Shown piece by piece: positions 12,194-19,245 of a DNA stretch of 33,687 bases; position 1 is the first letter of the stretch, and the number at the start of each line of letters is the position of its first letter. Below the pieces are notes generated by a model. It saw only the letters and a list, made by a program, of their open reading frames with translations, did not search any database and was not told the origin of the DNA. A program made the position numbers and the translations under genes. Source of the stretch: Candidatus Calescibacterium sp. (lineage in GTDB: Bacteria; DRYD01); assembly GCA_025057615.1 (NCBI GenBank), contig JANXBF010000001.1:1-33687 (forward strand), written 5' to 3'.

Positions 12194-15100
12194 CTATATA
12201 ACCATTGTTTCCTCTTCACCCTCAAAAATCTCAAAACTCTTCGGAACAACTGTGGTATTTTTATCAGTTATAATTTCTATATCAAGTCCCATGGCCTGTA
12301 GTTCTTTAACTAAAACCTTGAAACTCTCAGGTATACCAACAAACTTTATAGGTTTACCCTTAATAATACTTTCATAAGACCTATTTCTACCTATAACATC
12401 ATCGGACTTTATGGTAAGCATTTCATGTAGAGAATAAGAAGCACCATAAGCTTCAAGAGCCCATACCTCCATTTCACCAAACCTTTGGCCACCATTCTGA
12501 GCTCTTCCACCCAAAGGCTGCTTGGTTATCAACGAATAAGGACCTAACGACCTGGCGTGTATCTTATCCTCAACCATATGAATAAGCTTCATCATATAAA
12601 CATAACCAACTGTTACAGGTCTATCAAAAGGATCCCCCGTTTTACCATCATACAGTACAAATTTACCCCTACTCAAATCATCTATTATCATGTCATATAA
12701 CTTCTCAACTTCATCAATTGTAAGATCCCTAATGGTAAACATCTTAATCAACTTCTCATAATTATAAGAATAAAACTCTTTCTTATCCCCCATTCTCTTT
12801 ATAATTTCTTCTTTAGTCAATCCCAATTTGTCAACTAAATGTTTCATTTTATATCCACTGTGCCTCATCAGGATAATAAGCATTTCATAAGGATCATAAT
12901 TTTTAAATTTATCTCCTTTTAGTTGTAAATATTGCTCCCTCAAAGCTTGCTTAATCAATCCTCTTATAGTTTCAACATTGAGAGAAGAAAAAGAAGGAAC
13001 TTTTATCCTAATGTTCAGAATCTTACATACCAAACCAAGATGAGCTTCAAATATTTGACCAATGTTCATTCTAGATGGAACACCCAAAGGATTGAGTATG
13101 ACCTGAATGGGAGTCCCATCTGCCATAAAAGGCATATCTTCAATAGGAGCAATCAATGAAACAACACCTTTGTTACCATGCCTCAAAGCAACCTTATCAC
13201 CGACTCTTATATTCCTCCTCTGAGCAATATGAATTAAAATCCTTCTTAAGAAATTGTGATTTTCCGAATCCATATCCTCAGGCTTAAAACTTAACACTCT
13301 TATAACTTTTCCATATAGCCCAGGAGAAGCCCTTAAAGAGGTATCTTTTGCATTCCTAGCATTCTTACCAAAAATAGCCTGCAACAACTTCTCCTCGGGT
13401 GTGAGCTCGGTCTCACTCTGAGGAGTAACTTTACCAACAAGTATATCTCCCGGTTTAACCTCAGCCCCAACTCTTATAATACCCTCCTCATCCAGATCCT
13501 TAACAGCTTGTTCAGATATATTACCTATATCACGAGTTATCAACTCCGGTCCCTGTTTTGTCTGAACAGCCACAGTTTCCTTTTCCTCAACATGTATTGT
13601 GGAAAACCAGTTATTCCTTATTATTTCTTCACTAAATACTATAGAATCTTCAAAATTAAACCCTTCCCAAGGCATGTAAGCAGCCAAAACATTTCTACCC
13701 AAAGCAAGTTCATCATAGTCAATAGCAAACCCAGCAGCTAAAACACTACCTTCCTCAACATCTTGACCCAAATCAACATAAACCTTCTGATTTACAGTAG
13801 TTGCACTATTAGTAGAAACATATTTCTTCAAATTATAAGTATCAAACTCGCCCTTTGAAACCTCAACTATTATTTTTTCAGAATCCACATATACAACCTT
13901 GCCCTTTCTTTTAGCCAATATGGAATAACCACTATTCAAAGCAACAATTTTTTCCATTCCAGTGAATATAAGAGGTTTCTCAGGATTGATAAGCGGCACA
14001 GCCTGACGCTGCATATTTGCACCCATAAGTGCCCTATTTATATCATCATTCTCAATAAATGGTATTAATGAAGCAGAAACAGAAAGAATTTGTATCGGAC
14101 TTATCTCTATGAAATCGACTTCCTCTCTATCAACTACAGTAAAACTTCTCATATATCTAACATTAACTTTTTGATCTTCTATATTACCAGAATATATATC
14201 AAATTTAGTATCAGCAGGAGCTATTCTATAATTCTCCTCTTCTAAAGCATCCATATAGTAAACCTTACTAAAATCAATTACCCCATTATTTACTTTATAA
14301 TAAGGGACAACTAGAAAACCAAAAGGATAATTAATAGAAGAATAAGTAGTTAAAGATGTTATTAATCCTATATTTTGACCTTCAGGAGTTTCAACTGGGC
14401 AAACCCTGGAATAATGACTCGGATGTATATCCCTTATTTCAAAATTTGCCTGTTCCCTTTGTATACCTCCCACACCAAGAGCAGATAATCTCCTCTTATG
14501 TGTCAACTCAGAAAGAGGATTGGTTTGATCCAAAAACTGAGACAAGGAATTTTGAGCAAAAAATACTTTTATTATTCCAGCAATTGGCTTAGGATTAACA
14601 ACCTCAAAAACTCTCAATTTACTTTCATCAGAAGCAAACTGAGTTAGCTTATCTTTCACAAGCTTGGAAAACTTATATAACCCAGCCTTTATAACATTAT
14701 AAAGATGTTCCCCTATCGGCCTAACTCTCCTATTTGCTAAACTGTTGGTATCATCAGTACTCCTCCTACCTTCAAGAAATTCCAGATGCAATCTCATCAA
14801 ATTTATCCATTCCTTGTAAACAAAAGACTTTAACAACATTTTAGATCCAGTATTAGGAGAAATCAAATACTCACCATCAAAATACAACTCACTCAATTTA
14901 TGAACAGATCCACAAGTATCAAATTTAACCAAAACTTTGTCAGTTAGTTCATTATCGCAAAACTGACACTTGAAAAATATCTTACCCTTCTTTCCTTCAT
15001 ATTCTAGTAAACTGTTCATATAATTCAAATTATTACATTTGGAACATCTAACAGAGTCTAACAAGATAGTACTGTAAAACAATCTTTCACCACAATTATT

Positions 15101-16282
15101 ACAATTAACCTGTCCGTTTTTATTTAGATTACCACATCTCCAACATAGTATATCATATTCCATTCTCTGATAAATTTTATATCTACCAGCTATAGAAAGG
15201 TCATATTTTTCTCTACTAAAAAATGGGAATATCTGGTCCCTAATAACATCAAGAGGAACATTAGAGGTATTTTCTCCTGTCATTCTCCTATGGATCAATC
15301 TCATTGCTTTTTCTTCTTCATCAGACCCAAATATCTTGTTCCTCTTTATATCCCTCTCTATTGTATTTACAATCAGAGTAAATATATGCGATAAATATTT
15401 GTGTCTATTTTGAAAAGCATCTAAAAATTCATCATAAGTCATATCATATTTATCTTTAATATTATCATAAATATAAGGGACAAGAATATTATAAATGAAA
15501 TCATCAACTTTAGGATTTTCTATTATATATTCCTCAGCTTTTTTAATAAGCTTTGGATCAACATTAACCTTGTATTCTCTACAAATATATTTACATACCA
15601 ATTCCTCAAGTACATTGTCATTATTAAATCCCAAAGCTTTTAGTAAAGTGACAAATGTGAATTTTATCTTCTTGTCAAGTTTTATTCTCAAATAATTTGT
15701 GGTCTTTATTTTTTCTATCTCTCTTTCTGGATACAATCTTTCCTGTAACTCAGTTTCCAATTCTATTATACTACCCTTGGAAGGTATAACAGTAGTTTTA
15801 TATACAACAACCTTTTCTATTTCTTCTCGGAAAAAATAGATACCAGAAGACCTTATAAGCTGATTTATGAAAACCCTCTCAGTTCCATTAACAACAAAAG
15901 TGGCTCTATCTGTTATTAGTGGTAAATCAAAAAACTTGAGCTCATCCTCATCAACAACTTTCAGAGGCTTAACGATCATTCTTCCGTCTTTCTCTTCCTT
16001 CCTAATCTCCACTATCCTCAACTTAACAAACACAGGTACAGAGTAAGTTTTCAAAGTATATTTAGCGGTTTGAATATCATCTATATTAGGTGCTCCAACT
16101 CTACATTGAATATACTCAACAACATACTTATCAGTCTCTATCGGGAAAAAGTCCCTGAAAGCACTGTCAAGACCCTCTCTTATCAACCATTCAAAAGATC
16201 TACGAGGAATATCAAGTAAATCTGGTAAATCAGGTAATTTATAGTCCTTCCACCTACCTAACACAAGAACATTACTAGCCAT
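12194..16282 (-). CDS. rpoB: RNA polymerase beta subunit with a zinc-ribbon insert
   Basis: This 1362-residue protein is RpoB. Hallmarks are the rifampicin-pocket region (FLDQTNPLSELTHKRRLSALG), PVETPEGQNIGLI, the RHGNKG and PFMADGTP region, and the C-terminal clamp anchor GGRAQNGGQRFGEMEVWALE. Between SIAGRYKIYQRM (to about residue 374) and the STDDTNSLANRRVR segment it carries about 100 extra residues with eight cysteines in four CxxC pairs: 380/383 with 394/397, and 413/416 with 439/442. These look like two zinc ribbons; a lone Cys457 follows. AAGGAGG lies 8 nt before ATG 16282, downstream of its own promoter. The usual rplK-A-J-L genes do not precede it. rpoC follows after 21 bp. Confidence 0.98.
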   Translation of the reverse strand: MASNVLVLGRWKDYKLPDLPDLLDIPRRSFEWLIREGLDSAFRDFFPIETDKYVVEYIQCRVGAPNIDDIQTAKYTLKTYSVPVFVKLRIVEIRKEEKDGRMIVKPLKVVDEDELKFFDLPLITDRATFVVNGTERVFINQLIRSSGIYFFREEIEKVVVYKTTVIPSKGSIIELETELQERLYPEREIEKIKTTNYLRIKLDKKIKFTFVTLLKALGFNNDNVLEELVCKYICREYKVNVDPKLIKKAEEYIIENPKVDDFIYNILVPYIYDNIKDKYDMTYDEFLDAFQNRHKYLSHIFTLIVNTIERDIKRNKIFGSDEEEKAMRLIHRRMTGENTSNVPLDVIRDQIFPFFSREKYDLSIAGRYKIYQRMEYDILCWRCGNLNKNGQVNCNNCGERLFYSTILLDSVRCSKCNNLNYMNSLLEYEGKKGKIFFKCQFCDNELTDKVLVKFDTCGSVHKLSELYFDGEYLISPNTGSKMLLKSFVYKEWINLMRLHLEFLEGRRSTDDTNSLANRRVRPIGEHLYNVIKAGLYKFSKLVKDKLTQFASDESKLRVFEVVNPKPIAGIIKVFFAQNSLSQFLDQTNPLSELTHKRRLSALGVGGIQREQANFEIRDIHPSHYSRVCPVETPEGQNIGLITSLTTYSSINYPFGFLVVPYYKVNNGVIDFSKVYYMDALEEENYRIAPADTKFDIYSGNIEDQKVNVRYMRSFTVVDREEVDFIEISPIQILSVSASLIPFIENDDINRALMGANMQRQAVPLINPEKPLIFTGMEKIVALNSGYSILAKRKGKVVYVDSEKIIVEVSKGEFDTYNLKKYVSTNSATTVNQKVYVDLGQDVEEGSVLAAGFAIDYDELALGRNVLAAYMPWEGFNFEDSIVFSEEIIRNNWFSTIHVEEKETVAVQTKQGPELITRDIGNISEQAVKDLDEEGIIRVGAEVKPGDILVGKVTPQSETELTPEEKLLQAIFGKNARNAKDTSLRASPGLYGKVIRVLSFKPEDMDSENHNFLRRILIHIAQRRNIRVGDKVALRHGNKGVVSLIAPIEDMPFMADGTPIQVILNPLGVPSRMNIGQIFEAHLGLVCKILNIRIKVPSFSSLNVETIRGLIKQALREQYLQLKGDKFKNYDPYEMLIILMRHSGYKMKHLVDKLGLTKEEIIKRMGDKKEFYSYNYEKLIKMFTIRDLTIDEVEKLYDMIIDDLSRGKFVLYDGKTGDPFDRPVTVGYVYMMKLIHMVEDKIHARSLGPYSLITKQPLGGRAQNGGQRFGEMEVWALEAYGASYSLHEMLTIKSDDVIGRNRSYESIIKGKPIKFVGIPESFKVLVKELQAMGLDIEIITDKNTTVVPKSFEIFEGEEETMVI
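14828..15163 (-). other. Cys-rich tandem zinc-ribbon insert in RpoB
   Basis: This encodes residues 374-485 of the beta subunit. Spacings are CX2C-X10-CX2C (380-397) and CX2C-X22-CX2C (413-442). E. coli has about 40 residues between the matching flanks and no cysteine pairs there. Confidence 0.75.
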
Positions 16283-16455: not shown

Positions 16456-19245
16456 CTAATACATCACCAAAATACTTTTTTCCTCCTTCAAAAATTCTAA
16501 CAAATATCTCTTAGTATGAGAATTAACATCAGATTTTATAAATTCGTTTAATCTTCCACTAAAAACAATCTGGCCGCCCCTAAAAGAAGCATCCAAACCA
16601 ACATCTATTACCCAGTCAGCATTCTTTATTATATCCATGTTATGTTCTACAACTATAATAGTAGCACCTTTCTTTAGCATCTTATAAAAAACATTGAGAA
16701 GTTTTTCAATGTCTCTAAAATGTAAACCCGTAGTAGGTTCATCAAGCAAATAAATATTACTCTCAATATTTTTTTTAGCCAATTCCTGAGATAACTTTAT
16801 CCTCTGGGTCTCACCCCCAGAATAAGTGGGAGATATCTGACCCAACCTCATATACCCCAACCCTATATCAGAAATAAACTTCAACCTGTTCACAACACCG
16901 GGAAAACCCTCAAAAACAGTAATACACTCATCCACCGTCAAATCCAAAATATCAGCAATACTATAACCATTGAATTTTACACTGAGAGTGTCAAAAGAAT
17001 ATCTCTTACCATCACAAGCTTCACACTTGACGTAAATGTCAGGTAAAAAATTCATATCCACCTTTATAAATCCTTCACCTTTACACTTATCACATCTACC
17101 TTCAGACAAATTGAAACTGAATTTTGAAGGAGAATATCCTCTCCTTTTTGATTCAGGTAAATTGGCAAATATTTTCCTTATTTCATCAAACACTTTGGTA
17201 TAAGTAGCTAAACAAGATCTCGGTGTCTTACCTATTGGTTTCTGATCAACCAAATAAACATCTCCACTAAATTCACCATCAAACCTGCCATAAAAATCAT
17301 TATTCCCCTTACCAATCAAATTGTAATAAATAGCTCTTAAAAGAGAAGTTTTGCCACTACCAGAAACACCAGTTATAACAACAAACCTATTTAAAGGTAA
17401 ATCAACATCAACATTTTTTAAATTGTTCACATTTATTCCCCGAAATCTCAGAAATCTCTCTGGATAGCTTTCAATATAATCCTTATCTATCCATCTAACT
17501 TTCTTTCTATGATAAACATAATCCAAAGTTTCAGAATTATTTATATTCTCAATATAATCAGCATTTATTAGATACCCACCATTTGAACCTCCATCGTACC
17601 CAAGCTCCACTAAATAATCCGCATTTCTTATAACAGAAGAATCATGTTCAACAACGATAACAGTATTATCCATCTGTTTCAATTTTTTTATAGAATTGAT
17701 AATATTGTCAATATTATGCGGATGTAGCCCTACAGTAGGCTCATCCAATATATATACAACACCAGATACATAAGAAGAAAGAAGTGAAGCAATTTTCACC
17801 CTCTGCGCTTCTCCTGTAGATAAACTACCAACAGTTCTATATAGATCCAAATACCACAAACCAATATCAAGCAAGAATTTCAATCTGTTCTTAACTTCTT
17901 CAATCAATCCCCCTGCAATAATTAATTGCTTATCAGATAAATCAATATTACAAAACAAATGATATAATTCTTCCACACTCATAGAACACAATTGTCCAAT
18001 ATTTAACATTTTATCAACAAATTTAACCTTAACGGATAAAGCCTCCCTGTTTAATCTATAACCATTACACTCAAAACATGGCCTCTCTATAACCACATTC
18101 TCAAAATCAAAATCATAATTAAAATACAAATCAGAAAGAAAAGACTTTAACCCCTCAAAAAACTCATTACCATTGACAAACATATCAATCAAATCTCCAG
18201 AATAACACTTAAGAGGTGTATTAAAATCCATACCATAAGCTGAACAAAAATCCCTTATCTTCAACCACCACTGAGTTAATTTAGGCCAACTATAACTAAA
18301 GTTGGGCTTACCCAAAAACCTAATCGCTCCTTCATTAATACTCAATGAAAAGTCCATAACATTACCAATTTCAAAATCAACAACGGAACCTATACCTTTG
18401 CACTTATGACAAGCACCCAATGGAGTATTAAAAGAAAACAATCTCCAACTTATCTCAGGATAAGAAAACCCACACTCAACACAAGCAAAAGAACCAGAGT
18501 AATAAGACTCTACATCATCACATAGAACTTTGACAACCTTATGATTGTACCTACCCAACTTTATAGAAGTATCCAGAGCCAAAACAACAGACATATCCAA
18601 TCTACTCCTAGTCTCATTACTGACATTCAAAACATCAATAACTATATCTATATCATGCTTTTCATTTTTATTAAGAACTATTTCATCATCTATATCAACC
18701 TTTATTTTATTAATTAGTAACTTGGTAAATCCCAATTTTCTAACCTTATCAATCAGTAAACTATGATCACCTTTTTTTCTTCTCACCAAAGGACACAGTA
18801 AAGTAACTCTTTTACCATAAAAATCATTGAAAATATTATCTGATACCTGATGAGGTTCAAATTTGGATATTGGAATATCACAGTTAGGACAGAAAGGAAC
18901 GCCAACAGTAGCAAAAACCAACCTCAAATAATCATAAACCTCAGTAATAGTCCCAACCGTAGACCTTGGATTTATATTTTTTACTCTCTGATCAACACAA
19001 ATAGTAGGGCTTAATCCCTCTATTTTTTCTACTTTTGGTTTCTCTAACTTGTTTAAAAACTGTCTAGCATAATTAGAAAGAGCCTCTATATACCTTCTCT
19101 GACCCTCAGAATATATTATATCATAAGCCAAAGTACTCTTTCCACTACCAGAAACACCACAAATAACAACAATCTTGTTCTTAGGAATATTCAAACTTAT
19201 GTTCTTTAAATTGTTATGAGTTGCATTAACAATCTTAATATACAT
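16456..19245 (-). CDS. uvrA: Excinuclease ABC subunit A
   Basis: UvrA finds bulky DNA lesions with UvrB and hands them over for incision. The 929-residue protein has the full layout: Walker A GVSGSGKST at 30-38, first zinc module (CVECGFSYP ... CHKC), signature LSTGEAQRVKIAS, Walker B VVYILDEPTVGLHP, then a second ATPase half with GVSGSGKTS, the DNA-binding zinc module (CDKCKGEG ... CEAC), YSGGETQRIKLSQEL and IYLLDEPTTGLHF. Length is normal for the family (about 940). Its ATG overlaps the TGA of rdgB by one base (TGATG), so the two are translationally coupled. uvrB and uvrC are not in the window. Confidence 0.98.
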   Translation of the reverse strand: MYIKIVNATHNNLKNISLNIPKNKIVVICGVSGSGKSTLAYDIIYSEGQRRYIEALSNYARQFLNKLEKPKVEKIEGLSPTICVDQRVKNINPRSTVGTITEVYDYLRLVFATVGVPFCPNCDIPISKFEPHQVSDNIFNDFYGKRVTLLCPLVRRKKGDHSLLIDKVRKLGFTKLLINKIKVDIDDEIVLNKNEKHDIDIVIDVLNVSNETRSRLDMSVVLALDTSIKLGRYNHKVVKVLCDDVESYYSGSFACVECGFSYPEISWRLFSFNTPLGACHKCKGIGSVVDFEIGNVMDFSLSINEGAIRFLGKPNFSYSWPKLTQWWLKIRDFCSAYGMDFNTPLKCYSGDLIDMFVNGNEFFEGLKSFLSDLYFNYDFDFENVVIERPCFECNGYRLNREALSVKVKFVDKMLNIGQLCSMSVEELYHLFCNIDLSDKQLIIAGGLIEEVKNRLKFLLDIGLWYLDLYRTVGSLSTGEAQRVKIASLLSSYVSGVVYILDEPTVGLHPHNIDNIINSIKKLKQMDNTVIVVEHDSSVIRNADYLVELGYDGGSNGGYLINADYIENINNSETLDYVYHRKKVRWIDKDYIESYPERFLRFRGINVNNLKNVDVDLPLNRFVVITGVSGSGKTSLLRAIYYNLIGKGNNDFYGRFDGEFSGDVYLVDQKPIGKTPRSCLATYTKVFDEIRKIFANLPESKRRGYSPSKFSFNLSEGRCDKCKGEGFIKVDMNFLPDIYVKCEACDGKRYSFDTLSVKFNGYSIADILDLTVDECITVFEGFPGVVNRLKFISDIGLGYMRLGQISPTYSGGETQRIKLSQELAKKNIESNIYLLDEPTTGLHFRDIEKLLNVFYKMLKKGATIIVVEHNMDIIKNADWVIDVGLDASFRGGQIVFSGRLNEFIKSDVNSHTKRYLLEFLKEEKSILVMY

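Follow-up and report, generated by a model that had tools for sequence, protein, structure and literature searches.

Position and composition of the lobe insert

We analysed a stretch of 33,687 nucleotides from Candidatus Calescibacterium sp. (positions 1 to 33,687 of contig JANXBF010000001.1, assembly GCA_025057615.1; hereafter the window), in which rpoB, the gene for the RNA polymerase β subunit, carries an insert in the region encoding the lobe. The open reading frame is complete, and its full-length matches above curated cut-offs identify it as a bacterial RpoB (PRK00405, 1265.9 bits against a cut-off of 896; TIGR02013, 1213 bits against 801). A preliminary description, made from the sequence alone, had noted four CxxC pairs in the insert and read them as two likely zinc ribbons; its coordinates were exact and the cysteine positions were confirmed (Table 1).

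Table 1. Features of rpoB, its lobe insert and the adjoining genes in the window. Residue numbers refer to RpoB.
Feature	Position	Strand	Evidence
rpoB, RNA polymerase β subunit, 1362 aa	12194..16282	-	Profile matches PRK00405, TIGR02013; Pfam Rpb2 domains
Lobe insert, residues 374-485	14828..15163	-	Absent from insert-free RpoBs
Zinc ribbon 1 (R1), residues 380-397; C380, C383, C394, C397	15092..15145	-	Cys conservation; Zn_ribbon_3, DZR
Residues 403-408 (YSTILL), between R1 and R2/R3	15059..15076	-	Alignment of G006 ribbon with R1
Zinc ribbon 2 (R2), residues 413-442; C413, C416, C439, C442	14957..15046	-	Cys conservation
Degenerate third ribbon (R3), residues 454-478	14849..14923	-	Alignment with L005, L006
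RpoC, 1659 aa	7193..12172	-
uvrA	16456..19245	-

The first ribbon is spaced CxxC-x10-CxxC and the second CxxC-x22-CxxC. Eight of the 14 cysteines in RpoB lie in these CxxC pairs, and the ninth cysteine of the insert is C457. When RpoB was shuffled, none of 20,000 sequences placed four CxxC motifs inside 80 residues. R1 and R2 are likely to be Cys4 zinc ribbons, each with two conserved CxxC knuckles, and the motif suggests that the insert binds zinc. Further along the insert, a third module retains a recognisable alignment to intact ribbons in related genomes, and has F454, C457, S475 and T478 at the positions of the CxxC...CxxC ligands. The preliminary count of two ribbons therefore stands for the window, with the addition that a degenerate third follows them and that relatives have one or three.

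In alignments with other bacterial RpoBs the insert lies after the lobe motif GRYK and ahead of the helix preceding DDxxxLxNRR. The span from GRYK to LxNRR is about 162 residues in the window, compared with 60 in insert-free bacterial RpoBs, so that about 10 residues have given way to the insert and about 100 have been gained; the earlier figure of about 40 E. coli residues at this place overstated what is replaced. A Firmicutes-type RpoB in our sample (L129) has its βi5 insert at the identical point, after GRYKxNxKL and before the DDIDHLGNRR helix. By its aligned insertion point, the insert is a lineage-specific insertion at the βi5/βln5 site, and homology of the site would put the ribbons on the surface of the lobe.

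The β2 lobe is a known hotspot of lineage-specific inserts (PMC7749167; also treated in PMC11515920). Most bacterial β inserts have been assigned to BEAN domains (PMC11515920), in an article where the words 'zinc' and 'ribbon' are both absent. The closest counterpart by position is the Firmicutes βi5/βln5 (SI1), a 'type 3' BEAN insertion at the same point (PMC7749167, PMC11515920, PMC8318588). However, βi5 is of BEAN type and binds PcrA through a TGE hairpin, whereas the present insert consists of putative Cys4 ribbons without TGE. The E. coli βSi1 (βi4) differs in its position on the lobe, in its fold and in lacking zinc. Inserts of this kind are thus already known as a class; what is new here, as read from the alignments, is a lineage-specific insert of the β lobe built of zinc ribbons. 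No lobe zinc-ribbon insert was described in the open-licence literature that we searched.

Distribution and history of the ribbons within the order

We compared the window genome with six relatives down to the level of order; the next-listed relatives share only the domain. The order comprised seven genomes: four from the window's genus, two from a sister genus (L005 and L006), which together make up the six members of the family, and one order-level relative (G006). All four cysteines of R1 were unchanged in 7/7 genomes of the order. Those of R2 were unchanged in all six family members, and R2 was missing in G006. Outside these eight invariant cysteines the insert was about 45% identical between the two genera (six family sequences). 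A chance or assembly artefact was ruled out by the concordance of the seven genomes.

The number of ribbons varied among them. The four genomes of the window's genus all had R1 and R2, and both sister-genus genomes had these two and, in addition, an intact R3 (CISC...CPHC and CILC...CPYC). In the window's genus the second pair of R3 has changed from CPHC to SPNT. G006 had R1 alone, leading directly into the fork helix. There the segment FDTVLT corresponds to YSTILL in the window and to the core 'xxVLT' strand. Orthology of R1 and the G006 ribbon had moderate sequence support (P = 0.01-0.02) and better support from position. Derivation of R3 as a tandem duplicate of R2 was unsupported when the cysteines were held fixed (P = 0.28-0.91).

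On the simplest history, the order's ancestor would have gained R1, the family's ancestor would have added R2 and R3 in the space separating R1 from the fork helix, and the zinc ligands of R3 would have been lost later in the window's genus. The polarity of the R3 change is an inference, since it draws on seven genomes only.

Other parts of RpoB also vary within the order. The N-terminal part of the sister-genus proteins has an extra CxxC...CxxC module in β1 (VCTKC...ECPEC in one, ICSKC...ECIDC in the other), not present in the window's genus, so that L005 and L006 likely have four zinc ribbons in one RpoB, three in the lobe and one in β1. After RVVRERF, the G006 RpoB (L206 / L007) carries about 120 inserted residues, charged and helix-like, which were found only in G006 in the alignment.

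Search for lobe ribbons in other bacteria

The preliminary description had considered the insert unusual among bacterial β subunits, and comparison of RpoBs bore this out. The G006 lobe segment and a seven-row profile of the lobe motif plus R1 were each searched against 386 genomes. Among the matches listed in both searches, only the order's seven genomes gave full-length lobe-plus-ribbon matches, and a lobe-site zinc ribbon was found in none of the approximately 380 other bacterial genomes searched. The next matches to the profile scored at most 30.9 bits and were mostly in other proteins. A very divergent ribbon may escape the G006-segment search, because the matches listed end at E ~3e-12. 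The lobe segment was also read directly in 148 loci (12 further loci were unreadable with the motif): CxxC occurred there only in the order, and 137 loci were without it. These comparisons indicate that, in this sample, the insert is an add-on restricted to one small lineage, which is uncultured, and that other bacteria have unrelated inserts at the site or none.

Zinc-finger-like modules do occur elsewhere in bacterial RpoB. Single CxC...CxxC modules were seen at about the same place in β1 in G037 (L025/L132), G016 (L028) and G220 (L126), and a weak match led to a double zinc finger in β1 of G230 (L203). These modules lie about 390-430 residues before LxNRR, and one of them, CKCGKFQGLGGKGVVCPKCGMEV in L028, resembles the β' zinc-binding domain. 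They share with the lobe insert a zinc-finger-like module within a bacterial RpoB; unlike it, they belong to the β1 domain and are mostly of the CxC...CxxC form of the β' zinc-binding domain. Judged by these motifs, zinc inserts in RpoB arose more than once, though in this sample those of other lineages are not in the lobe.

Profile matches, structure models and selection

In profile searches the insert resembled zinc-ribbon families alone. Pfam DZR (PF12773) matched each of the six family members, with a best E of 4.5e-7, and on L005 it reached 27.9 bits, 0.6 above its curated cut-off of 27.3. With the invariance of the eight cysteines, these matches upheld the assignment of two likely zinc ribbons to the lobe. 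The window insert itself fell below the Pfam cut-offs, for DZR (23.5 v 27.3 bits) and for Zn_ribbon_3 (23.4 v 27 bits). The DZR profile also straddles the modules, its match running from R1 through the first cysteine pair of R2 in every family member.

An AlphaFold model of RpoB residues 1-660, built with 52 sequences, had a mean predicted local distance difference test (pLDDT) score of 78.4. Block means were about 79-91 for R2 and about 86-94 for R3. Thus, R3 is predicted still to fold despite its lost ligands.

Within-genus pairs gave a ratio of nonsynonymous to synonymous substitution (ω) of 0.06-0.4 in the insert, compared with 0.02-0.05 in the adjoining fork region. With ω below 1, the insert is under purifying selection. 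This bears on the possibility that it is a passenger, inserted in a permissive hotspot and kept as zinc ribbons fold alone, with no dedicated function. The status of the lobe as a hotspot of lineage-specific inserts (PMC7749167) would suit such an origin, as would a ribbon count that varies from one to three and the loss of the R3 ligands in one genus. However, eight cysteines are invariant, two ribbons are retained in 6/6 family members and the within-genus ω is well below 1, and we regard a functionless passenger as quite unlikely.

Possible functions of the insert

We asked what such ribbons might contact. Zinc ribbons often bind nucleic acids, and the preliminary description had proposed nucleic-acid binding as one role. 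By touching RNA or the DNA duplex downstream, the ribbons might lend stability to the open or elongation complex; the lobe adjoins the downstream DNA channel (PMC6970531), and the one ribbon that G006 has is basic (10 K/R v 4 D/E). It is the only basic one: the window insert has 13 K/R and 13 D/E, a net charge of about zero, and the other five family members are similar. R2 and R3 thus arrived without added positive charge. The lack of net charge speaks against general DNA binding and is more in keeping with contact to protein than to DNA, and we consider a nucleic-acid role unlikely.

We therefore favour, at about even chances, a zinc-stabilised extension of the lobe that would serve chiefly as a protein-docking surface and tune lobe movement, because the insert is neutral and the lobe inserts of known function dock proteins. 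In E. coli βSi1 docks TraR (PMC6970531), and in B. subtilis βi5/SI1 docks the Tudor domain of PcrA (PMC8318588). In the insert, two zinc ions would hold small modules together on the lobe surface. What docks there may be an accessory factor in transcription or repair, or else an adjacent portion of the polymerase, and docking would tune movement of the lobe as with βSi1 in E. coli and βi5 in Bacillus.

Several results weigh against this docking role. No docking partner was found. The PcrA/UvrD Tudor domain was not found in the seven genomes, nor was the [VIL]DxxTGE[VIL] motif in the RpoB of six of them and the 1067-aa G006 fragment. With both domain and motif missing, PcrA/UvrD was ruled out as the partner. 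Confidence in the model of R1 was low (pLDDT block means of about 56-67), the stand-alone model of the L005 insert was poor (mean pLDDT 60.7), and the insert is evolving more rapidly than the core of the polymerase. The preliminary description had also proposed that a transcription factor binds here, which is plausible, but the one partner known for a βi5 insert is missing. CarD/Mfd-type RID domains were present in 6/7 genomes; Mfd binds β1 (PMC8318588).

A different kind of protein contact is suggested by the N-terminal ribbon of Rpb9/A12.2/C11, which, like the insert, is a zinc ribbon adjoining the lobe of the second-largest subunit (PMC8501072). The insert could be its covalent analogue, bridging lobe and jaw and stiffening the downstream side, in which case pausing, fidelity or termination would be affected. 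However, Rpb9/A12.2/C11 is a separate subunit, and no sequence or fold relation to the insert was significant in the searches made. Zn_ribbon_RPB9 matched at E = 0.067 and Pol I A12-type chains at E above 1, both at chance level; the PDB profile search gave no significant match, and the fold search with the L005 insert model gave none at E <= 0.001. We hold this bridge to be improbable, and we doubt still more its stricter form, in which the ribbon module would do the job of the Rpb9/A12/C11 N-terminal ribbon of archaeal and eukaryotic polymerases inside β as a convergent, covalent device built ribbon by ribbon.

Whichever contact the ribbons make, the spread from one ribbon to three across this order, with ligand loss afterwards, offers a small natural series on the function of lobe inserts, and it bears on how RNA polymerase acquires new surfaces.

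Cleavage factors and neighbouring genes

Neither PF01272 nor the DksA/TraR profiles matched in the seven genomes, and the ribbons were therefore taken at first as a possible substitute for an absent cleavage factor. This idea was dropped when a divergent Gre-like protein was found in 5/7 genomes (L170:967-1698 (-), L171, L208:234-977 (-), L209:745-1293 (+) and L210:584-1135 (+)). The protein was missed by PF01272 and matched PF03449 weakly (E = 0.008-0.27). It has a coiled coil with an acidic tip of the GGDSPDNQDY type and a GreA_C-like C-terminal part, and carries TESPLAKAI and YKIL; it was aligned to the E. coli GreA sequence.

The gene for RpoC follows rpoB in the window. In its product Pfam domain 1 is split, and a long, charged, coiled-coil-like stretch spans approximately residues 150-560. 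Immediately upstream of rpoB lies uvrA, in place of the usual rplJ-rplL.
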